Below are positions 3,874-28,364 of a DNA stretch of 64,000 nucleotides, one piece after another. The notes beneath the pieces are model-generated. The model ran no database searches. It was not told the DNA's origin and saw nothing but the letters and a program-made list of their open reading frames with translations. Source of the DNA: Caulobacter sp. S45 (GTDB taxonomy: Bacteria > Pseudomonadota > Alphaproteobacteria > Caulobacterales > Caulobacteraceae); NCBI RefSeq assembly GCF_009765965.1, contig NZ_LMUL01000014.1, forward strand, positions 2,637,812-2,701,811, written 5' to 3'. Positions within the stretch are counted from its first letter, which is position 1. Each line of letters opens with the position of its first letter. A program made the translations under genes and the position numbers.

Positions 3874-6768
3874 ATGGAAAATGATAGCGCTACCTTTGCG
3901 CCTCTCCGCTTCGCTGGCGGAGTCGCGGCCTTGGCGATCGCGGCTGCGATCCTGATGTCCAGTCCGGCATCGGCCATCGAGGTGCAGTCGTCGTGTCTCG
4001 GGGCTGCAGCCGTCTGCGAGGGCGGCTCGACCGCCGCCTTCGCCCTCATCGCGCAAGGACGGCCTGCGATCCTGGCGGTGGACGCCGGAGACCTGCCGGG
4101 CGTGGGCCGGGCCGCCGACGACGTGCGCGCCGACCTGGCGCGGCTGGCGGGCGGAACGGCGTCTCCGGATACGACGATCATCGCCGGCACGCTCGGCCAC
4201 AACCCCGTCATCGACCGGCTGGTGCGCGAGGGGCGGCTGGACGTGAGCGGCGTCGCCGGCCGCTGGGAGGCGTTCGTGCAGCAGGTGGTGGAGCATCCCG
4301 CGCCGGGGATCGAGCGCGCCCTGGTGATCGCCGGCGCCGACCGTCGCGGAACCATCTTCGGCCTGTACGATCTTTCGGAACGCGCGGGCGTTTCGCCCTG
4401 GGCCTGGTGGGCCGACGTGCCGGTTCCGCATCGGCCCGACCTATACGTCACCGCCGGGCGACGGGTTGAAGCGCCGGCCGTGCGCTATCGGGGTATCTTC
4501 CTCAACGACGAGGACCCGTCGCTGAAGGGCTGGGTCGACGCGACCTATGGCGGGTTCAACCACCGCTTCTACGCCAAGGTGTTCGAGCTGACCCTGCGGA
4601 TGAAGGGGAACTTCCTGTGGCCGGCCATGTGGGGCAAGGCCTTTGCCGACGACGACGCCGAGAGCCCAGGCCTGGCCAACGCCTATGGCGTGGTGATGGG
4701 CACCTCCCACCATGAGCCGATGGCCCGCAACCAGGCGGAATGGACCCGATACGGCAAAGGTCCGTGGGATTACACCCAGAACGCCGATGTGCTGCGCGGC
4801 TTCTGGCGCAAGGGGATCGAGCGGCTGGGGAGCAACGAGGCCCTGGTCACGGTCGGCATGCGCGGCGACGGCGACAAGCCGATGACCGAGGGATCGCCCA
4901 TCCAACTGCTGGAGAAGATCGTCGCCGACCAGCGCAAGATCATCGGCGACGTCACCCATCTCGATCCGGCCCGCACGCCCCAGGTTTGGGCGATCTACAA
5001 GGAGGTGCAGGACTATTACGACCACGGCATGCGCGTGCCCGACGACGTGACGCTGCTGTTTTCCGACGACAACTGGGGCGACCTACGCCGTCTGCCGGAG
5101 TTGGGCCACACGCGGGCGGGCGGCTACGGCGTCTACTACCACTTCGACTATGTCGGCGGCCCTCGGAACTACAAGTGGATCAACACCAACCAGGTCGAGC
5201 GCATCTGGGAGCAGATGCACCTGGCCCACGCCTACGGCGCCGATCAGCTGTGGATCGTCAATGTCGGCGACCTGAAGCCGATGGAGCTGCCGATCCAGTT
5301 CTTCCTCGACTATGCCTGGAACCCGGACGCCTGGCCGGTGGACAAACTCGGCGACTACACGCGCCAGTGGGCCGCCGAGCAGTTCGGCGCCGTCCATTCC
5401 GCCGAAATCGCCGAGCTGCTGACCCGCTACACCCAGTACAATGCGCGGCGGAAGCCCGAGCTGCTGGAGCCCACGACCTACAGCCTGACCGACTATCGCG
5501 AGGCGGAGCGGGTCGCCGACGCCTATGAGGCCCTCGCCGCCAAGGCCCGCGTGATCCGAGCCCAGCTTCCGCCCGGCTACGACGACGCCTTCGTGGAGTT
5601 GGTGCTCTATCCGGTGGAGGCCAGCGCCAACCTGAACCGGCTCTATGTGACCACGGGTCTGAACCGGCTCTACGCCGCCCAGGGACGCGCTGCGACCAAC
5701 CGCACGGCGGTCGAGGTCAAGGCCCTGTTCCAGCGCGACGAGGCGCTGACCCACCTCTACAACGACGAGGTCGCCCACGGGAAATGGACCCACATGATGG
5801 ACCAGACCCACATCGGCTACACCTCCTGGCGCGACCCCAAGGTCAACATCATGCCTAAGCTCCAGACCCTGGCCCTCCCGGCGGCGGGCGCGCTGGGCGT
5901 GGCGGTGGAGGGCGATGCACGAGCCTGGCCGGCGGCGCCGGGCGCGCCGCGCCTGTCGTTTGACCGCTACGGCGCCGCCAGCCGCTACATCGAGGTGTTC
6001 GATCGCGGCGCGGGGCCCATCCGCTACGCGATTTCCGGCGGAGCGCCCTGGCTGCGCGTCTCCGATCCCGAGGGCGATGTCGGTGAACAGAAACGGCTCC
6101 TGGTCTTGGTCGACTGGAGCAGGGCGCCCACGGGCCACGGCGAGGCGTCGCTGACAGTGCGCGGGTCCGACGGGACCGCCGTGACGGTCGCGGTCTCCGC
6201 CGACAATGCGGCGGCCCAAGTCTCGAAAGACGGGGGCGAAGCCTTCGTCGAGGGTGACGGTTATGTGGCGATAGAGGCGGCGCACTACGCCCGCGCCGTG
6301 GAGGCGGGCGGAGTGGGTTGGGGTGTCGTGCCGGACCTCGGGCGCACCGTTTCCGGTGTGACCAGCTTCCCGGTCACTGCGCCCTCCCAGGCGCCCGGCG
6401 CTGGCGCCCACCTCGACTACGCCGTCATCTTGACCAAGGGCGGCCCGGTCGCGGTGCAGGTCGCCGTCGCGCCGTCGCTGGATTTCCGGGGCAAGGGCGG
6501 CTTGCGTTATGCGGTCTCCATCGACGGCGGCGCACCCCAGGTGGTCAACCTGGAGGGCGATCCATCCAAGGACGCCTGGGATCGCTCAGTCGCCGACAAT
6601 GCGCGGGTGCTCGTCACCCGTTTCCCCACGGTCGTGGCTGGACCGCATGTGGTGCGATTGTGGCGGGTCGATCCGGGCGTGGTGTTCGAGCGGGTGGTGC
6701 TCGATCTCGGCGGGGTCAAGCCCAGCTATCTCGGGCCGCCGGAAAGCCAGCGGTTGGGGGCGCCCTGA
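3874..6768 (+). CDS. GH115 xylan alpha-1,2-glucuronidase
   Basis: Secreted or periplasmic glycoside hydrolase of family GH115, 964 residues, expected to remove (4-O-methyl-)glucuronic acid side chains from polymeric and oligomeric xylan. A signal peptide ends near residue 34 (MSSPASA). Family hallmarks include the stretch around residues 205-290 (NDEDPSLKGW, GGFNHRFYAKVFEL, MKGNFLWPAMW, MGTSHHEPM), NWGDLRRLP and the DQLWIVNVGDLKPMELP block. A GH115 C-terminal beta domain starts near residue 785 (GYVAIEAAHYARA). The length is normal. The first codons contain an operator-like palindrome (3882-3895). It ends 3 bp before the converging GH43 gene. Confidence 0.95.
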   Translation: MENDSATFAPLRFAGGVAALAIAAAILMSSPASAIEVQSSCLGAAAVCEGGSTAAFALIAQGRPAILAVDAGDLPGVGRAADDVRADLARLAGGTASPDTTIIAGTLGHNPVIDRLVREGRLDVSGVAGRWEAFVQQVVEHPAPGIERALVIAGADRRGTIFGLYDLSERAGVSPWAWWADVPVPHRPDLYVTAGRRVEAPAVRYRGIFLNDEDPSLKGWVDATYGGFNHRFYAKVFELTLRMKGNFLWPAMWGKAFADDDAESPGLANAYGVVMGTSHHEPMARNQAEWTRYGKGPWDYTQNADVLRGFWRKGIERLGSNEALVTVGMRGDGDKPMTEGSPIQLLEKIVADQRKIIGDVTHLDPARTPQVWAIYKEVQDYYDHGMRVPDDVTLLFSDDNWGDLRRLPELGHTRAGGYGVYYHFDYVGGPRNYKWINTNQVERIWEQMHLAHAYGADQLWIVNVGDLKPMELPIQFFLDYAWNPDAWPVDKLGDYTRQWAAEQFGAVHSAEIAELLTRYTQYNARRKPELLEPTTYSLTDYREAERVADAYEALAAKARVIRAQLPPGYDDAFVELVLYPVEASANLNRLYVTTGLNRLYAAQGRAATNRTAVEVKALFQRDEALTHLYNDEVAHGKWTHMMDQTHIGYTSWRDPKVNIMPKLQTLALPAAGALGVAVEGDARAWPAAPGAPRLSFDRYGAASRYIEVFDRGAGPIRYAISGGAPWLRVSDPEGDVGEQKRLLVLVDWSRAPTGHGEASLTVRGSDGTAVTVAVSADNAAAQVSKDGGEAFVEGDGYVAIEAAHYARAVEAGGVGWGVVPDLGRTVSGVTSFPVTAPSQAPGAGAHLDYAVILTKGGPVAVQVAVAPSLDFRGKGGLRYAVSIDGGAPQVVNLEGDPSKDAWDRSVADNARVLVTRFPTVVAGPHVVRLWRVDPGVVFERVVLDLGGVKPSYLGPPESQRLGAP
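3882..3895. promoter_or_regulatory. Operator-like palindrome inside the GH115 start codons
   Basis: TGATAGCGCTACCT, with a perfect TAGCGCTA core at 3885-3892, occupies codons 3-8 of the GH115 gene. The same core appears upstream of xylX and between GH67 and manD. It is probably bound by the same LacI-type repressor. Confidence 0.6.
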
Positions 6769-12086: not shown

Positions 12087-13532
12087 TTAGCCGACCATCT
12101 CTTCGAGCTCGCGCCCACGGGTCTCGTGCACCAGCTTGCGGACGAAGAAGAACGAGACGAGCGCGCTCAGCGCATAGAAGCCGTAGGTGATCACCAGACC
12201 CAACGAGACCTGCATCACCGGGAAGCTGACGGTGATCAGGAAGTTGGCGATCCACTGCGCCCCGCCCGCCACCGCCAGGCCGGAGCCGCGGATCTGGTTG
12301 GGGAACATCTCGCCCAGCATGACCCACATCACCGGGCCCCAGCTCATGTTGAACAGCACCACGTAAGCGTTGGCGCTGACCAGGGCGAGCAGGCCCATGG
12401 CGTGGGGCAGCTGCACCTGGCCGTGCTGCAGGGTCGCGGTGGAGAAGGCGAAGGCGACCAGGGCGAGGGTCACGGCCATACCGGCCGAGCCAATCGACAG
12501 CAGCGGCTTGCGGCCGATCTTGTCGATCAGGCCCATGGCGGCGAAGCAGGCCAGGATCGAGAGCGCGCCGGACAGGATGTTGATCAGCAGCGAGTCGTTC
12601 TCGCTGAAACCGACCGACTGCCACAGCACCGCGCCGTAGTAGAACACGATGTTGATGCCGACGAGTTGCTGGAACACCGCCAGCCCGATCCCGACCCAGA
12701 CGATGGGGCGCACCTTGCCGGCGGTCTTGTCGTAAAGGTCCGACAGCTTGGGCCGGTGGTGGTCCTTGGCCAGGCTGCTGCGGATGCTGGCGACCTTGCC
12801 GGGCGCGGCCTCGGCGCCGATCAGGCGGGCGAGCACGGCCTCGGCCTCGGCGTCACGGCCCTTGGCGACCAGGAAGCGGGGGCTTTCGGGGATGGCCAGC
12901 AGGCTGAGCAGGAAGACGCCGGCCGGAATCACCTGGACCCAGAACATCCAGCGCCAGGCAGGATGGCCGAACAGCTCGGCGGTGGAGCTGCCCGCCCAGC
13001 GCGACAGCAGGTAGTTGACCAGGAAGGCGCCGGTCAGCCCGGTGATGATCATCACCTGCTGCACGCTCGACAGTCGGCCGCGGATCGAGGCCGGGGTCAC
13101 CTCGCTGATATAGACCGGGGTCAGCACGCTGGCCGCGCCCACACCCAGGCCGCCGACAAAGCGCGCCACGATGAAGATCGCGGAAGACCCCGCCGCGCCG
13201 GCCGCCAGCGCGCTCAGCACGAACAGGGCGGCCGCCGCGATCATCACGCTGCGCCGGCCGAACACGTCCGCCAGCCGTCCGGCCGCGAACGCGCCCACCG
13301 CGCAGCCGATCAGGATGGCGCCGACATTGACCCCGGTCCCGAGCTTGGACAGGCCGAAGGCGTGCTCCAGCCCCTGCTGGGTGCCGTTGATGACCCCACT
13401 GTCGTAGCCGAACATGAAGCCGCCGAGCGTGGCCACCGCCACGATGGCCAGCACGAAGGCCATGTTGACCTTCTCGAGCGGACCCGTCGCGTCCAGCGCC
13501 TCGTTCGAGGCGACATGCGTCATTCCAGCCAT
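12087..13532 (-). CDS. Sugar porter of the MFS (xylose:H+ symporter-like)
   Basis: Inner-membrane major facilitator of the sugar porter family, 481 residues with about 12 membrane segments. Visible signatures are GFMFGYDSGVINGT in helix 1, GRLADVFGRRSVM after helix 2, PESPRFLVAKGR at the mid-loop and the final helix leading to ETRGRELEEM. XylE-like import of D-xylose is the likely role, given that it heads the GH3-GH10-GH43 operon and lies next to the xyl genes; other pentoses or glucose cannot be excluded. The ATG at 13532 or a second one at 13523 could be used. An operator-promoter lies at 13609-13641. Confidence 0.88.
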   Translation of the reverse strand: MAGMTHVASNEALDATGPLEKVNMAFVLAIVAVATLGGFMFGYDSGVINGTQQGLEHAFGLSKLGTGVNVGAILIGCAVGAFAAGRLADVFGRRSVMIAAAALFVLSALAAGAAGSSAIFIVARFVGGLGVGAASVLTPVYISEVTPASIRGRLSSVQQVMIITGLTGAFLVNYLLSRWAGSSTAELFGHPAWRWMFWVQVIPAGVFLLSLLAIPESPRFLVAKGRDAEAEAVLARLIGAEAAPGKVASIRSSLAKDHHRPKLSDLYDKTAGKVRPIVWVGIGLAVFQQLVGINIVFYYGAVLWQSVGFSENDSLLINILSGALSILACFAAMGLIDKIGRKPLLSIGSAGMAVTLALVAFAFSTATLQHGQVQLPHAMGLLALVSANAYVVLFNMSWGPVMWVMLGEMFPNQIRGSGLAVAGGAQWIANFLITVSFPVMQVSLGLVITYGFYALSALVSFFFVRKLVHETRGRELEEMVG

Positions 13533-13648: not shown

Positions 13649-15433
13649 TCAATGGTTGTGCCGGGGGGGCTTCGCGGCCACCCCGCGATATTTGACCGCC
13701 ATTTCCATTACCGCGCCCGTGTCGAGCTGTCCCACGGTTGAGCGATAAAGCTCTTCCCAAGGCGTGTGGCTCTCGGGAACCAGCGGCAGGCCATCGGCCT
13801 TGCGGCGTTCGATCTCCGCATCGCCCACCAGCATGTCGCACCGTCCCGCTTTCAGGTCGATGCGGATGAGGTCGCCGGTACGCAGCCAGGCCAGGCCGCC
13901 GCCTATAGCGCTTTCCGGCGCCGCATTCAGGATCGAGGGGCTGTCGGAAGTGCCGGACTGGCGGCCGTCGCCCAGCGTCGGCAGGCTGGTGATCCCGCGC
14001 TTCAGCAGGGCGTCGGGCGGCTGCATGTTGACCACCTCGGCCGAACCGGGCCAGCCGATCGGGCCAGAGCCGCGGATCACCAGGATGGTGCGCTCGTCGA
14101 TCCCCAGCGACGGGTCGTTGATGCGGTCGTGATAATCGTCGGACCCGTCGAAAACCACCGCCTTGCCTTCGAACACATCCGGATGGGCGGGGTCGTCGAG
14201 GTAGCGGGCGCGGAACTCCTCGGAGATCACGCTGATCTTCATGATGGCGAAGTCGAACAGGTTGCCCGACATCACCAGGAAGCCCGCCGCCGGCTGGATC
14301 GGCGTGTCGTAGGCGGTGATCACCTCGCGGTCGCGGCTCTCCAGCCCCTTGATGTTCTGGGCCAGGGTATGGCCGGTGACGGTCATGGCGTCGCCGTAGA
14401 GTCGACCGGCGTCCATCAATTCGCACAACACCGCCGGCACCCCGCCCGCGCGATGGAAGCGCTCGCCCAGGTATTTTCCCGCCGGCTGCATGTTGACCAG
14501 CAGCGGTACATCCAGGCCGTATTCGGTCCAGTCGCCGGGCTTCAGCGTCACCCCGGCGTGGCGGGCGATGGCGGCCAGATGCGGCTGGGCGTTGGTCGAT
14601 CCGCCGAGCGCCGCGATCGCCGCCACCGCGTTCAGGAAGGCCGGGCGGGTCAGGATGTCGGAGGGGCGCAGGTCCTCGTAGGCCATCTCGACGATGCGCC
14701 GCCCGGTCTCGTAGGCGATCTGGCCGCGCTCGCGATAGGGGGCGGGGATGGCCGCGCAGCCGGGCAGCGACATGCCCAGCACCTCGGCCACGGCGTTCAT
14801 GGTCGAGGCGGTGCCCATGGTGTTGCAGTGGCCGAGCGAGGGGGCCGAGGCCGCCGCCGTCTCCAGGAATTCCTGCTCGTCGATCAGGCCAGCCGCCAGC
14901 TTGCGGCGCGAGCGCCAGATCGCCGTACCCGACCCCGCCAGCTCGCCGTCGTGCCAGCCGTCCAGCATCGGCCCGCCCGACAGCACGATGGCGGGGATAT
15001 CCACGGTGGAGGCGGCCATGATCCCGGCCGGCGTGGTCTTGTCGCAGCCGGTGGTTAGCACCACCGCGTCGATCGGGTAGCCGTAGAGGATCTCCACCAA
15101 GCCGAGATAGGCCAGGTTGCGGTCGAGCGCGGCGGTCGGTCGGCGGCAGTTCTCGAAGATCGGGTGGACCGGGAACTCCATCGGGATACCGCCGGCGTCG
15201 CGGATACCGTCGCGGACCCGCCGGGCCAGCTCGACGTGCACCCGGTTGCAGGGGGTCAGGTCGCCGCCGGTCTGGGCGATGCCGATGATGGGACGGCCGG
15301 ACCGAAGCTCCTTCAGCGTCAGGCCGTAGTTCATGAACCGCTCCAGATACAGGGCGGCCATGTCGGCGCGGTGGGGCGCGTCGAACCAGTCCTGCGAGCG
15401 GAAGCGGCGGGCGGGCTTGGTGGAGTCAGTCAA
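13649..15433 (-). CDS. xylD: D-xylonate dehydratase (IlvD/Edd family)
   Basis: Iron-sulfur dehydratase, 594 residues, converting D-xylonate to 2-keto-3-deoxy-D-xylonate in the Weimberg pathway. The sequence is very close, from memory, to the Caulobacter xylonate dehydratase: RRFRSQDWFD, IIGIAQTGGDLTPCNR, GGIPMEFPVHPIFENCRRP, LTTGCDKTTPAGIMA, SLGHCNTMGTASTMN and a C terminus ending RHNH. The three cluster-ligand cysteines sit in TPCNR, TGCDK and GHCNT. The start is a TTG at 15433 inside an 8-bp overlap with xylC. The next ATG is 24 codons further and would remove conserved residues, so TTG is preferred. It is the last gene of xylX-B-C-D. Confidence 0.95.
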   Translation of the reverse strand: MTDSTKPARRFRSQDWFDAPHRADMAALYLERFMNYGLTLKELRSGRPIIGIAQTGGDLTPCNRVHVELARRVRDGIRDAGGIPMEFPVHPIFENCRRPTAALDRNLAYLGLVEILYGYPIDAVVLTTGCDKTTPAGIMAASTVDIPAIVLSGGPMLDGWHDGELAGSGTAIWRSRRKLAAGLIDEQEFLETAAASAPSLGHCNTMGTASTMNAVAEVLGMSLPGCAAIPAPYRERGQIAYETGRRIVEMAYEDLRPSDILTRPAFLNAVAAIAALGGSTNAQPHLAAIARHAGVTLKPGDWTEYGLDVPLLVNMQPAGKYLGERFHRAGGVPAVLCELMDAGRLYGDAMTVTGHTLAQNIKGLESRDREVITAYDTPIQPAAGFLVMSGNLFDFAIMKISVISEEFRARYLDDPAHPDVFEGKAVVFDGSDDYHDRINDPSLGIDERTILVIRGSGPIGWPGSAEVVNMQPPDALLKRGITSLPTLGDGRQSGTSDSPSILNAAPESAIGGGLAWLRTGDLIRIDLKAGRCDMLVGDAEIERRKADGLPLVPESHTPWEELYRSTVGQLDTGAVMEMAVKYRGVAAKPPRHNH

Positions 15434-16331
15434 GGCGCAACTCCGCTTGCGGCAGTCCTGGAACGTCGACGGTGAAGCTGAACAGGCCGCCGGCCTGGGG
15501 TTGGGCCGCGCGCTCGGCCGTGTCCAGCCCCTTCCAGGCGGTGGTGGCGTAGACGGTCTTCAGGTCGTCGCCGCCGAAGGTCGGCTTGGTGACGTTGGCG
15601 CAGGGGAAGCGGACCTGGGCCAGCAGCTCGCCGGTGGGCGCATAGCGGCGCAGGCCCCAACCGCCGAACAGGCCGGTCCACACGCAGCCCTCCGCGTCGA
15701 CCGCCGGACCATCCGGATAGCCCGCCCCGTCCTCGATCGCGGCGAACACCCGCCGGTTGGAGACATTCCCGTCCTGGCCGAGGTCGAAGGCGTAGATCAG
15801 CCGGCCGAGCGTGTCGGTGTGATAGAGCACGCCGCCGTCCGGGCTGAAGGCCGGTCCGTTGGTGATGACGTAGTTCCAGTCCACCGCCACCGGCGCCCCG
15901 CGCGCCTCCAGCCGGTACAGCGCGCCGCTGGAGGCGGTCTCGAGGTCGTGCATCGACCCGAACCAGAGCCGACCTTGCGCATCCACGCAGCCGTCGTTCA
16001 GCCGGTTGTCCGGCAGATGCGCCTCGACCGTCGACAGCAGGGTGAAGGCGCCGCTCTTCGGGTTGAACCTGTGCAGCCCGGTCTTCAGCCCGACCAGCCA
16101 GCCACCGCCGGCGATGGGGGCCAGGAAGCTCGGGTTCGACGGCGCGTCCCACGACCGGCGTGCGCCGGACACGGTGTCGAGGCGATGGATGCGCCGACCC
16201 TTGATGTCGACGAACCAGACCGCCTGCTCGGCCGCCGACCAGACCGGGCCTTCGCCCAGCTCGGCGCCCACGTCCCAGACGCAGTCGGGTTGCGCGACGT
16301 CGGCGATGGCGGGGCTAAGGCCGGCCGGCAT
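15426..16331 (-). CDS. xylC: Xylonolactonase (SMP-30/gluconolactonase family)
   Basis: Six-bladed propeller lactonase of 301 residues that opens D-xylonolactone to D-xylonate. Family features are LGEGPVWSA near the N terminus with the metal-binding Glu, DNRLNDGCVDAQGRLWFG, ITNGPAFSPDGGVLYHTDT and YPDGPAVDAEGCVW. The ATG at 16331 gives the normal family length; it lies 2 bp after the xylB stop. Its stop overlaps the xylD TTG by 8 bp, so xylB, xylC and xylD look translationally coupled. A longer in-frame extension upstream only reads through xylB in another frame. Confidence 0.92.
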   Translation of the reverse strand: MPAGLSPAIADVAQPDCVWDVGAELGEGPVWSAAEQAVWFVDIKGRRIHRLDTVSGARRSWDAPSNPSFLAPIAGGGWLVGLKTGLHRFNPKSGAFTLLSTVEAHLPDNRLNDGCVDAQGRLWFGSMHDLETASSGALYRLEARGAPVAVDWNYVITNGPAFSPDGGVLYHTDTLGRLIYAFDLGQDGNVSNRRVFAAIEDGAGYPDGPAVDAEGCVWTGLFGGWGLRRYAPTGELLAQVRFPCANVTKPTFGGDDLKTVYATTAWKGLDTAERAAQPQAGGLFSFTVDVPGLPQAELRLD

Positions 16332-16333
16332 GC

Positions 16334-17101
16334 TCAGCGCCAGCCCGCGTCGATCCAGTATTCGTGGCCGGTGCACATGCGCGCGTCGTCGGAGGCCAGG
16401 AACATCACCAGCGAGGCGACGTGGGAGGGGTCGATGCGGCCCTTCAGGCACTGGGCGGCGACGATCTCGGCCTCGCCTTCGGGCGTGTACCACTTCATCT
16501 GGCGCGGGGTCTTGACGTTGCCGGGCGCGATGCAGACCACCCGCGTCCCGTCCGGTCCCAGCTCGCGGGCCAGCGCGCGGGTCATGCCCTCGATACCGGC
16601 CTTGGCGGTCTCGTAGAGCACTAGGTCGGGCAGGCCCAAGTGCCAGGAGATCGAGCCGAAGTTGATGATCACCCCGCCGCCGGCCGCCTTCATCCCTGGC
16701 GCGACGGCCTGGGCGCAGAACAGCATGTGGCGCAGGTTGACGTTGATCCGGTCATCCCAATAGGCGGGCGTGACCTGGGCCAGGGTGTGGCGGTCGTCGT
16801 TGCCGGCGTTGTTCACCAGCACCTCGACCGGGCCGATCTCCTGCTCGATCTGGGCGAAGGTCGTCTTCAGCGCGCCCAGGTCGGTCAGGTCGCAGGCGAG
16901 GAAGCGCGGGGCGACAGGGGCGTCGGCGAACCGGGCGACGAGGGCGCGAGAGTCCGCCTCGGCCACGTCCAGGAACACCACCTGGGCGCCTTGGCGCACG
17001 AAACCTTCCACCAGGCCGGCCCCAATGCCGGACCCGCCGCCGGTGACCACCACCCGCTTGCCCTTGAGACTGGGATAGATGGCCGAGGAGGACGAACTCA
17101 T
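16334..17101 (-). CDS. xylB: D-xylose 1-dehydrogenase (short-chain dehydrogenase)
   Basis: NAD-dependent SDR of 255 residues oxidising D-xylose to xylonolactone, first step of the Weimberg pathway. It has the cofactor motif VVVTGGGSGIGAG, LVNNAGNDDRH, catalytic Ser in FGSISWHLG and the YETAK Tyr/Lys pair. It ends CTGHEYWIDAGWR, as I remember for Caulobacter XylB. The ATG at 17101 matches the known N terminus (MSS..AIYPSLKGKRV) and follows an AGGGG site. An in-frame GTG at 17185, overlapping the xylX stop by 4 bp, would add 28 residues and cannot be excluded. Confidence 0.95.
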   Translation of the reverse strand: MSSSSSAIYPSLKGKRVVVTGGGSGIGAGLVEGFVRQGAQVVFLDVAEADSRALVARFADAPVAPRFLACDLTDLGALKTTFAQIEQEIGPVEVLVNNAGNDDRHTLAQVTPAYWDDRINVNLRHMLFCAQAVAPGMKAAGGGVIINFGSISWHLGLPDLVLYETAKAGIEGMTRALARELGPDGTRVVCIAPGNVKTPRQMKWYTPEGEAEIVAAQCLKGRIDPSHVASLVMFLASDDARMCTGHEYWIDAGWR

Positions 17102-17181
17102 CGGCGCGACCCCTGCGCCAGCGCCTGGGTGTTGAACATCGCCGCCATGCGGGTCCTTCTCGTGAAGCATCGCGATCTCGC

Positions 17182-18348
17182 TCACGCGACCGCCTCGGGT
17201 GCGCGCGCCGAAAGCAGGCCGCGTGCGGCCAGGTTGCGCATCAGCTCGCCGATGCCGAACCGCCAGGGCGGTGCGGCGTCGCAGTTGACGACCTTGTTCT
17301 CCAGCACGCCGAGCCGCTCGTTGGAGACGCGCACGATGTCGCCGGTCTTGTGGGTGAAGCCCTCGCCGGGCGCCCCGCGATCCTCGATGGGCGCGAACAT
17401 GGTGCCGAGGAACAGCGCGAAGCCGTCCGGATACTGGTGGTGCTTGCTCAGCGTCTGGCCGACCAGCTCCAGCGGGTCGCGGCTGATCAGCTCCATCGAG
17501 CTGGAGCCCTCGAGCCGGAAGTTATCCTGGCCCTCCACCTCCAGCCGGACCACGGCCTTGCGCACGTCGTCCAGGGTGTAGTCGCCGTCGAACAGGCGGA
17601 TGAACGGGCCGATGGCGCAGGAGGCGTTGTTGTCCTTGGCCTTGCCGAGCAGGAGAGCGCTGCGGCCCTCAATGTCGCGCAGGTTGACGTCGTTGCCGAG
17701 CGCCGCGCCGCGCACCTGGCCGGTCGTGTCGACAGCCAGCACGATTTCCGGCTCGGGATTGTTCCAGGCGCTGTCGCTACGCACGCCGACATAGTCGCCC
17801 CAGCCGACGGTCGACAGGGTCGGCGACTTGGTGAAGATCTCCGCGTCGGGCCCGATCGCCACCTCCAGGTACTGCGACCACAGGCCGTCGGCGATCAGGG
17901 CGGTCTTCAGCTTGGCGGCCTCGGGCGAACCCGGCTTCACCGTGCGCAGGTCCGAGCCGACCCGGTCGCGCAGGGCGTCGCGGATGGCCTGGGCCTGGCC
18001 GGCGTCGCCGCGCGCACGCTCCTCGATCACCCGCTCCACTGCAGAGACCGCGAAGGTGACGCCGCTGGCCTTCACGCACTGCAGGTCGAAGGGGGACAGC
18101 AGGCGGCGCGCGGTGCGGTCGCCATCGCTCCAGGCCGGGGCGAACTCGAAATCCTCCACCGGGCCGAGGTCGCGCCCTCGGACCTCGAGCAGGTCGGCGC
18201 GGGCTAGAAGCTCGGCGGTGGTCGGGGCGATGGCGGAAACGTCCTGCACCCGTCCGTTGCGCACGAGCACAGGCGTCGGGCCTTCGGGAACGGCGATGCG
18301 GCCGAGCAGGACCGCGTCACGCCAATCGGCCGGAAGATGTTGAATCAT
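17182..18348 (-). CDS. xylX: 2-keto-3-deoxy-D-xylonate dehydratase (FAH-fold family)
   Basis: Fumarylacetoacetate-hydrolase-fold enzyme of 388 residues, expected to convert 2-keto-3-deoxyxylonate to alpha-ketoglutarate semialdehyde. Fold motifs include the metal-ligand region WNNPEPEIVLAVD, VRGAALGNDVNLRDIEGRSA, KAKDNNASCAIGP and LFLGTMFAP. It is the first gene of the operon, as in Caulobacter crescentus xylXABCD, but it is followed directly by xylB, so xylA is missing. A promoter-operator lies at 18404-18441. The identification is firm from both sequence and neighbours. Confidence 0.94.
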   Translation of the reverse strand: MIQHLPADWRDAVLLGRIAVPEGPTPVLVRNGRVQDVSAIAPTTAELLARADLLEVRGRDLGPVEDFEFAPAWSDGDRTARRLLSPFDLQCVKASGVTFAVSAVERVIEERARGDAGQAQAIRDALRDRVGSDLRTVKPGSPEAAKLKTALIADGLWSQYLEVAIGPDAEIFTKSPTLSTVGWGDYVGVRSDSAWNNPEPEIVLAVDTTGQVRGAALGNDVNLRDIEGRSALLLGKAKDNNASCAIGPFIRLFDGDYTLDDVRKAVVRLEVEGQDNFRLEGSSSMELISRDPLELVGQTLSKHHQYPDGFALFLGTMFAPIEDRGAPGEGFTHKTGDIVRVSNERLGVLENKVVNCDAAPPWRFGIGELMRNLAARGLLSARAPEAVA

Positions 18349-18403: not shown

Positions 18404-18441
18404 TGATAGCGCTAACCTCGCCTGCCGTCATGAGATGTCAA
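18404..18441 (-). promoter_or_regulatory. xylX promoter-operator
   Basis: On the minus strand, a perfect TTGACA (-35, at 18436-18441) is followed after 17 bp by AGGTTA, which runs into the palindrome at 18404-18417 (plus strand TGATAGCGCTAACC, core TAGCGCTA). The operator sits at or just after the -10 box. Caulobacter xylose-inducible promoters controlled by XylR are recalled to share this kind of core. Confidence 0.7.
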
Positions 18442-18446
18442 CTGCT

Positions 18447-19502
18447 TTACGCAGGACGTGGCGGGCTTGAGGACTGACGCTCCACCAGGGTGTGCGGCAC
18501 GATCACGTCGGTGGGTTCCGGAGTCCGGCCGTCCTTGGCGGCGCGGGTCTCGCGCAGCAGCAGGTCGATGGCGGCGGCGGCCATGGCGCTCACCGGTTGG
18601 CGCACCGTGGTCAAGGCGGGCCAGAGCGTGGTGGAGATCGAGGTATCGTCGAAACCGACCACGGTGAGGTCGCGGGGCACGTCCAGCCCCCGCCGGTGCG
18701 CCACCGACACCACGGCCGCGGCCATGTCGTCGTTGCTGGCGAAGATGGCGGTGGGGCGGACCTCGGCATCCAGCAGCCGCTCGGCGGCCTCAAGGCCCGA
18801 GGGGAAGGTGAAATAGCCCTGCACCACCTCGGCCTTGGCGTCGGGCGCATGGCGCAGCGCCGCGCGGAAGCCGGTCAGGCGTTCGGCGCTGGCGGTCTGG
18901 TTGGGGTGGCCCTTGATGAAGCCGATCCGACGGTGGCCGAGATCGAGCAGGTAGCGGGTCATGTCTTCGGCCGCTGCCCGGTCGTCGACGCGCACGCAGG
19001 ACAGGTCGCTGCGGAACCGGCCGGTGGCCACGCCCACGGTGGCGATGCCGGCGGCCTGCAACGCTTCGCGCACGGTATCGGATTCGCTGAGCGGCGGGGG
19101 CAGCACCACGCCGGTCACGGCGCTGTCGATCAGCCGTTGCACCGAGATGCGCTCGGCGTCGGGGTTGCTGGCTTCGCACTTGACCAGCAGCAGTTCCGCG
19201 CCTTTGCCCGCGCTCTCGTCCAGCACGCCGACCAGGAATTCGCTGAGATAGGCGGCGCTGGGGTTGCTGTAGATCACCCCGATGCGGACATGCTCGGCGC
19301 TGGCCAGGTTGCGGGCGGCGAGGTTGGGGACGTAGTTCAACTCCCGCACGGCCAGCAGCACCGCCTCGCGGGTGCTCTCGCGCACGTTCTTCTCGTCGTT
19401 GACCACCCGAGACACCGTCATCGGCGAGACGCCCGCAAGGCGGGCGACGTCGTTGATGGTGATGACGTTTCGCGTCCGTCGAGTGGACCTGTTCATTTGC
19501 AT
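18447..19502 (-). CDS. LacI-family transcriptional regulator, probable xylose repressor
   Basis: DNA-binding repressor of about 351 residues. The LacI helix-turn-helix is plain: TINDVARLAGVSPMTVSRVV then the hinge-region YVPNLAARNLAS. A periplasmic-binding-protein-like ligand domain follows, with VGVATGRF, FIKGHPNQTASAERL, FASNDDMAAAVV and VVGFDDTSIS. Starts at ATG 19502 or ATG 19496 are both possible. The gene lies 98 bp upstream of xylX on the same strand, with the TAGCGCTA operator between them. That position suggests it is the XylR of this regulon; in C. crescentus, xylR is, as I recall, unlinked from xylX. The ligand (xylose) is inferred. Confidence 0.85.
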   Translation of the reverse strand: MQMNRSTRRTRNVITINDVARLAGVSPMTVSRVVNDEKNVRESTREAVLLAVRELNYVPNLAARNLASAEHVRIGVIYSNPSAAYLSEFLVGVLDESAGKGAELLLVKCEASNPDAERISVQRLIDSAVTGVVLPPPLSESDTVREALQAAGIATVGVATGRFRSDLSCVRVDDRAAAEDMTRYLLDLGHRRIGFIKGHPNQTASAERLTGFRAALRHAPDAKAEVVQGYFTFPSGLEAAERLLDAEVRPTAIFASNDDMAAAVVSVAHRRGLDVPRDLTVVGFDDTSISTTLWPALTTVRQPVSAMAAAAIDLLLRETRAAKDGRTPEPTDVIVPHTLVERQSSSPPRPA

Positions 19503-19653
19503 CTTCCGGCTCGTCCTAAGGCGCACAGCTTTGGAACAAGCTTCTTCCAGACAGGCGCGTCCGGCAATCGCTATGCCAACAGAGAGGCGTCACCTGATTT
19601 TCAATCGCCTCCACGCAGGAAAGGCGTCGGGTCGAAGGCGAGTTTTCGTACAT

Positions 19654-26913: not shown

Positions 26914-26954
26914 TTGACAAAGGCTGGCGTCCACTTATCGTGATAGCGCTAGCA
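26914..26954 (+). promoter_or_regulatory. manD promoter-operator
   Basis: TTGACA at 26914-26919 is followed 16-17 bp later by a weak TATCGT/ATCGTG -10, then by the palindrome TGATAGCGCTAGCA at 26941-26954 (core TAGCGCTA, 26944-26951). The arrangement mirrors that at xylX. Confidence 0.6.
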
Positions 26955-27149: not shown

Positions 27150-28364
27150 ATGATGATCAAGATTACGGGCGCGAAGGTGATCGTCACCTGCCCAGGCCGC
27201 AACTTCGTCACCCTGAAGATCGAGACCGACCAGGGCGTCTATGGCCTAGGCGACGCCACCCTGAACGGGCGTGAACTGGCGGTGGCCAGTTATCTGACCG
27301 ACCACGTCATCCCCTGCCTGATCGGGCGCGACGCCCATCGCATCGAGGACATCTGGCAGTTCCTCTACCGCGGGGCCTATTGGCGCCGGGGTCCGGTGAC
27401 CATGAGCGCGATCGCAGCGGTCGACATGGCGCTGTGGGATATCAAGGGCAAGGTGGCGGGCCTGCCGCTGTACCAGCTGCTGGGCGGCGCGAGCCGCGAC
27501 GGCGTGATGGTCTACGCCCACGCCAACGGCGTCAGCATCGAGGAGACGCTGGAGCGGGCCGAGCACTACATCGCCCAGGGCTACAAGGCGGTGCGGCTGC
27601 AATCCGGCGTGCCGGGGCTGAAGTCCACCTACGGCGTGTCCAAGGACAAGGACCGCTATGAGCCCGCCGACGCCGACATCCCGTCGGAAAACCTGTGGTC
27701 GACCGAAAAGTACCTGCGCTCGGTGCCGGCCCTGTTCGAGGCGGGGCGCGAAAAGCTGGGCTGGGACGTGCATCTGCTGCACGACATCCACCACCGGCTG
27801 ACCCCGATCGAGGCCGGGCGGCTGGGCAAGGACCTGGAGCCCTATCGCCCCTTCTGGCTGGAGGATGCGACGCCCGCCGAGAACCAGGCCAACTTCCGCC
27901 TGATCCGCCAACACACCACCAGTCCGCTGGCGGTGGGCGAGGTGTTCAACTCGATCTGGGACTGCAAGCAGCTGATCGAGGAACAGCTGATCGACTATAT
28001 CCGCGCCACCGTGGTCCATGCCGGCGGTATCACCCATTTGCGCCGCATCGCCGGGCTGGCCGACCTCTACAACGTGCGCACCGGTTGCCACGGGGCGACC
28101 GACCTGTCGCCGGTGTGCATGGGCGCGGCCCTGCACTTCGACCTGTCGGTGCCCAACTTCGGGGTGCAGGAATACATGCATCACACCGAGGAGACCGACG
28201 CGGTCTTCCCCCATGCCTATAGTTACGCCGACGGCATGCTGCATCCCGGCGAGGCGCCGGGCCTGGGCGTGGACATCGACGAGGCCCTGGCCGCCAAGTA
28301 CCCCTACCGTCGCGCCTACCTGCCGGTGAACCGGCTGGAGGACGGCTCCATGTACAACTGGTGA
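27150..28364 (+). CDS. manD: D-mannonate dehydratase (enolase superfamily, ManD)
   Basis: Mg-dependent enolase-superfamily enzyme of 404 residues, converting D-mannonate to 2-keto-3-deoxygluconate, the substrate of the kinase at 2770. ManD traits are visible: [11 protein letters not shown], an active-site loop with [34 protein letters not shown] (metal-ligand Asp and His), [10 protein letters not shown] and VGEVFNS (metal ligands), and the C terminus [14 protein letters not shown]. This is the ManD rather than the UxuA type. Start ATG at 27150, or the next codon. The stop overlaps the GTG start of the transporter gene by 4 bp. Confidence 0.93.

Follow-up and report, generated by a model that had tools for sequence, protein, structure and literature searches.

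Which enzyme finishes the oxidation of xylose in a bacterium whose xylose operon stops one gene short? The question is raised by Caulobacter sp. S45, where a stretch of 64,000 nucleotides (contig NZ_LMUL01000014.1, positions 2,637,812 to 2,701,811; hereafter, the window) contains xylX, xylB, xylC and xylD without xylA. Their products would carry out the first four steps of the Weimberg pathway, leading to alpha-ketoglutarate semialdehyde (KGSA), and we propose that the last step would be taken by a non-orthologous KGSA dehydrogenase (KGSADH) of the 'aldehyde dehydrogenase (NADP+)' type (KsaD, or KGSADH-II/III type). We put at about 70% the probability that the operon ends at KGSA, that a KsaD-type enzyme, probably shared with arabinose oxidation, completes the pathway, and that xylA became dispensable and was repeatedly lost. 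An earlier note on this DNA had claimed that the oxidation of KGSA must fall to an enzyme whose gene lies elsewhere; this claim is supported, with KsaD as the specific candidate and no XylA orthologue.

On the minus strand of the window, xylX is followed, after a gap of 80 bp, by xylB, xylC, xylD and a gene for a sugar porter of the major facilitator superfamily (MFS), with a LacI-family regulator gene upstream (Table 1). Genes for a xylose dehydrogenase, a lactonase, a xylonate dehydratase and a 2-keto-3-deoxyxylonate (KDX) dehydratase are thus grouped, as in a Weimberg xyl operon, and no xylA stands between xylX and xylB in the window. XylX shares 75% identity with the XylX encoded in an xylX-xylA-xylB-xylC cluster of Phenylobacterium sp. 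LY.5, and xylD is 73–81% identical to the xylD standing after xylB or xylC in relatives. Conceivably, the pathway is incomplete or diverted, with KDX consumed by an aldolase (Dahms route) or through Route III and XylX idle or acting as a hydrolase; XylX is presumably a member of the COG3970 group. The genome contains four rows of the dihydrodipicolinate synthase family, and the Route III cluster contains COG3970 proteins (PMC6336799). However, XylX groups with one encoded in an xylXAB operon (98/82 support), its gene is in one block with xylB, xylC and xylD, and the adjacent short-chain dehydrogenase/reductase (SDR) is an XylB equivalog, all of which make a diversion very improbable.

The genome assembly (G000) spans 4.89 Mb in 19 contigs and is 99% complete. 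Both the distance between xylX and xylB and the absence of an aldehyde dehydrogenase (ALDH) from the window, as given in the earlier note, were borne out: a search of the whole genome with the profile PF00171 produced 18 rows, corresponding to 17 open frames (one frame was split into two rows), none of them in the span of the window and the nearest on its contig ~660 kb away. With XylA of Phenylobacterium sp. LY.5 as the query, the 19 contigs gave no XylA orthologue, the matches being paralogues at 28–41% identity (37% for the top-scoring one); matches counted as XylA in relatives are mostly 54–83% identical. The same note had suggested looking elsewhere in the genome for a XylA homologue with a site for the operator motif TAGCGCTA. 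This candidate was rejected, because no XylA orthologue was found in the genome and there is no ALDH gene within 12 kb of any of its 15 TAGCGCTA sites (both strands; three of them in the window), the nearest being ~13 kb from a site.

Two circumstances that would have overturned the apparent lack of xylA, a truncated remnant in the spacer and an assembly error, found no support either. In six-frame translation, the spacer scored 31 against 8 of 24 XylA proteins, compared with a mean of 31.9 for shuffled sequences, 56 of 100 of which scored as high; at the DNA level, its score against xylA was reached by 4 of 60 shuffles. A xylA remnant was thus rejected, and the spacer holds no recognisable one. 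The xylX stop codon occupies 17182-17184 on the minus strand and the ATG of xylB is at 17101, but the stop overlaps with a GTG at 17185 that is in frame with xylB, and from there the spacer would code for a 28-residue N-terminal extension of XylB, so that xylX and xylB may even overlap. That an assembly error removed xylA is scarcely conceivable, because in many other genomes xylX is immediately followed by xylB (25 of 29 other xylA-less family genomes, see below, in two other genera), and the orthologue was found on none of the contigs.

The favoured candidate is a long NADP-type ALDH that shares 30% identity with XylA along 314 residues. We call it KsaD as a shorthand, its putative type resting on the 3v4c and 1eyy matches and the annotation of homologues. 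These two structures were its sole matches in the PDB within E 1e-20 (536 and 472 bits, respectively), and it shows full-length homology with the VhALDH-like group, which we assume to include KGSADH-II/III. Its translation contains GAGQFCTNPG, presumably the holder of the catalytic Cys. The protein is 65–69% identical to Azospirillum proteins, most of them annotated as 'aldehyde dehydrogenase (NADP(+))' and the others unannotated; one or other of the A. brasilense KGSADH isozymes I–III may be among them. In A. brasilense Sp7, the homologous gene comes after genes for a lactonase and a dihydrodipicolinate synthase-family protein, in a sugar-transport neighbourhood. NCBIfam gives KsaD no name, the cut-off being unreached by all 25 models listed of 37.

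Near ksaD lies an arabinose-type oxidative cluster (Table 1) with genes for an IlvD-type (arabinonate-type) dehydratase 78% identical to that of a relative, a GFO/IDH dehydrogenase, a gluP-like sugar MFS transporter and an AraD1 family protein (545 bits, cut-off 340). Judging from this content, the cluster would use L-arabinose, and KsaD probably serves this pathway too. We infer that KsaD would act on KGSA in this organism and that ksaD would be expressed on xylose. An enzyme able to take KGSA from both sugars could have permitted the loss of xylA, in this genome and on repeated occasions in the family, and two pentose pathways may have their last enzyme in common.

To place this genome among its relatives, we used an evenly drawn sample of 298 Caulobacteraceae genomes, taken to be the same in all searches because their settings were identical. 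XylX (cut-off E 1e-100) was present in 112 of them, 82 with a XylA match (cut-off E 1e-110) and 30 without; the XylA class is generous, since it includes homologues 47–60% identical, located away from xylX in genus g14, and some partial matches. KsaD, counted here with partial matches (G215, G323), occurred in 29 of the 30 genomes with xylX and without xylA, in 24 of the 82 with both genes and in only 2 of the 186 without xylX. Fisher's test gave a P of 3e-11, uncorrected for kinship, and was weaker inside single genera, with P values of 0.009 (g3), 0.09 (g22) and 0.13 (g7). A second set of 54 genomes, overlapping the first, contained KsaD in 33 of 34 genomes without XylA and 7 of 20 with XylA.

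On a XylX tree of 65 rows, some of them on long branches and of unsure placement, 11 changes are required to account for the xylA-less label, and well-supported branches force at least nine of them, indicating several gains or losses of the state. Near neighbours show reciprocal patterns: G180 has KsaD without XylA and its sister G163 has XylA without KsaD, and the same applies to G289 as compared with G325 and G008, and to G309 as compared with G303 and G249. Phenylobacterium sp. LY.5 (G292), the nearest XylX relative of the window and its sister, contains both enzymes, as expected of an intermediate. We infer that the event here was a loss of xylA rather than a gain in the relatives.

The position of ksaD in relatives links it to both pathways. 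In G309, ksaD and xylX share a strand, and ksaD ends ~60 bp before xylX. Three Sphingomonas loci (L040, L045 and L046) have ksaD ~1 kb away from xylC, within a block that also contains xylD, xylX and xylB, and in two others (L191 and L192) it adjoins the LacI gene belonging to a block of xylD, an MFS gene, xylC and xylB. Many more relatives have ksaD together with genes for an arabinonate-type dehydratase, a GFO/IDH dehydrogenase, an epimerase or an arabinofuranosidase. Two xylA-less strains, Sphingomonas lacusdianchii (L194:9153) and Sphingomonas sp. Leaf22 (L197:8955), contain TAGCGCTA 55–56 bp upstream of the ksaD match, with no xyl gene matched around it and a chance expectation of ~0.0009 per 100 bp, which suggests that the xylose regulon controls an unlinked gene. 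Of the other 38 among 40 ksaD loci, 37 were without TAGCGCTA in the stretch examined and L195 had distant sites only. It appears fairly probable that the Caulobacteraceae exchange the last Weimberg enzyme repeatedly, a promiscuous arabinose-type KGSADH closing two pathways and, in some lineages, then moving into the xylose regulon or coming under its operator. Annotators should thus seek KsaD-type enzymes before declaring a Weimberg pathway incomplete.

Another ALDH of the genome was at first our main candidate. The product at C9:73340 resembles KGSADH-I, with 599 bits against the solved A. brasilense KGSADH (5x5t) and 518 against an NAD-dependent succinate-semialdehyde dehydrogenase, and a paralogue at C12:271029 gave 559 and 527 bits, respectively; either could perform the last step. 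The neighbourhood and a family control then lowered this candidate: read by eye, the genes around C9:73340 are CoA-transferase, thiamine diphosphate-enzyme and enoyl-CoA hydratase-like genes, and close relatives (stringent cut, 1e-165) occur in only 8 of the 298 family genomes, a single one of which, Caulobacter sp. S45 itself, is among the 30 with xylX and without xylA. We consider it unlikely that either of these enzymes, rather than KsaD, closes the pathway.

Several observations weigh against KsaD. Its co-occurrence with the lack of xylA is partly phylogenetic, since 24 of the 30 xylA-less cases belong to g22, where P was only 0.09. One genome with xylX in the family sample (G113, in 500 contigs) and one of the second set (G066) have neither XylA nor KsaD, and the family searches scored 4–5 candidates per genome, so that single misses are possible. 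In Caulobacter sp. S45, ksaD starts 19 bp after a DUF885 gene and the surrounding 14 kb contain no TAGCGCTA, which would place it outside the XylR regulon and leaves an induction by xylose unexplained. Finally, the genome contains 16 ALDH genes besides ksaD that could contribute, and in Pseudomonas putida M2 growth on xylose was stopped by xylD repression only, suggesting that other enzymes can cover the XylA step there; that study also reports the XylX and XylA activities to be recruitable from other proteins (PMC10107873). These last two points would equally suit a last step shared by several broad ALDHs, none of them dedicated, but such sharing leaves unexplained why KsaD occurs in 29 of 30 xylA-less genomes with xylX as opposed to 2 of 186 without xylX, and we regard it as quite improbable. 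Separately, a TGATAGCG stretch right before the start codon of ksaD was set aside as a possible chance half-site.

A KsaD-type solution to the last step has precedents. KsaD of Corynebacterium glutamicum (Cg0535) is 25% identical to XylA, oxidises KGSA and completes the Weimberg pathway, growth on xylose being equal with or without xylA (PMC6475665). As in our proposal, a dehydrogenase far from XylA in sequence thus finishes the pathway without xylA; unlike there, our ksaD lies 11 kb from an arabinose-type cluster. Isolates of P. putida have a 1584-bp 'XylA' gene close to xylX that responds to xylose by strong induction (PMC10107873), and its length suggests that it is of KsaD type. The XylDXA clusters of the P. 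putida group and P. taiwanensis likewise pair XylX with a long dehydrogenase (the 1584-bp gene), although there its gene is inside the xyl cluster, as opposed to ~2.3 Mb away here. A KsaD homologue that shares 47% identity with ours also lies near xylX in one Pseudomonas locus (L080).

In C. crescentus, the Weimberg gene order is xylXABCD (PMC6475665). The window shares with it orthologous xylX, xylB, xylC and xylD in the same order, an adjoining LacI regulator gene and TAGCGCTA before xylX; unlike it, the operon is without xylA, and none was found in the genome. In the window, TAGCGCTA before xylX is a putative XylR site. The contrast with xylXABCD drawn in the earlier note is real, but the exceptional look that it gave the operon did not hold, because an xylX-xylB junction without an intervening xylA is common in Caulobacteraceae and sphingomonads. 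Among 80 named loci retrieved with XylX, the 80 best of 590, many have xylB after xylX without an intervening ALDH gene, for example those of Caulobacter endophyticus and Caulobacter sp. 602-2, AP07 and HMWF025 (the ALDH queries used for this layout did not detect KsaD-type enzymes, which were sought separately). In the family sample, XylA is missing in 24 of the 45 XylX genomes of g22, taken as Caulobacter. We mapped 60 of the 112 loci: every one of the 29 others that lack XylA, and 31 of the 82 that have it. Among the former, xylB came directly after xylX in 25, four (G113, G155, G289 and G323) had no xylB match in the stretch around xylX, and 21 had TAGCGCTA 77–107 bp upstream of the xylX match. 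Other layouts among the mapped loci were xylX-xylB-MFS-xylA in the XylA-bearing g3 genomes and xylX-xylB-xylC without a nearby xylA in the g14 genomes, so the textbook xylXABCD is one of several layouts even inside this family. The xylA-less layout was not found described as such in the open-access literature searched, and a comparison of the NA1000 and K31 genomes (PMC4221894) makes no mention of xylose, xyl or arabinose.

Table 1. Features of the xyl operon in the window (positions in the window) and of the candidate regions elsewhere in the genome (assembly G000).
Feature	Coordinates	Strand	Basis or remark
Sugar-porter MFS transporter, XylE-like	12087..13532	minus	NCBIfam TIGR00879, 361 bits
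xylD, xylonate dehydratase (IlvD/Edd family)	13649..15433	minus	Pfam PF00920
xylC, xylonolactonase (SMP-30/SGL)	15426..16331	minus	Pfam SGL, E 2e-79; synteny
xylB, D-xylose 1-dehydrogenase (SDR)	16334..17101	minus	NCBIfam NF053674 equivalog, 459 bits (cut-off 400); Pfam adh_short
xylX-xylB spacer, 80 bp	17102..17181	minus	open in the xylB frame from GTG at 17185
xylX, KDX dehydratase (FAH superfamily)	17182..18348	minus	Pfam FAA_hydrolase, 28.7 bits (cut-off 23.9)
TAGCGCTA operator motif	18407..18414		58 bp upstream of the xylX ATG
LacI-family regulator, xylR candidate	18447..19526	minus	Pfam LacI; LacI match near xylX in many relatives
Arabinose-type oxidative cluster	G000:C9:328606-333883 (L304:8607-13884)		11 kb from ksaD
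ksaD candidate, long NADP-type ALDH	G000:C9:344817-346385		~2.3 Mb from the operon, same contig

Some other loci depart from these layouts. Two clusters from metagenome-assembled genomes of Phenylobacterium sp. LY.5 and a Caulobacterales bacterium (L017 and L027, the same as L280 and L278) contain xylA and give no match to xylD in the interval from xylC to the MFS gene, a mirror image of the operon in the window. Three loci of the Caulobacter-like genus (L251, L253 and L256, from G208, G218 and G233) have the order xylX-xylB-xylD with no xylC match between. A XylA-like match (55%) at G175:C1:1217127-1218524 contains three internal TGA codons and is possibly a decaying copy. XylA-like ALDHs also occur in 47 of the 186 family genomes without XylX, suggesting that this type of ALDH may have another role. 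The two further TAGCGCTA sites of the window, at 3885-3892 and 26944-26951, the latter between a GH67-like gene and an open reading frame at 27150, possibly mark a wider xylan regulon.
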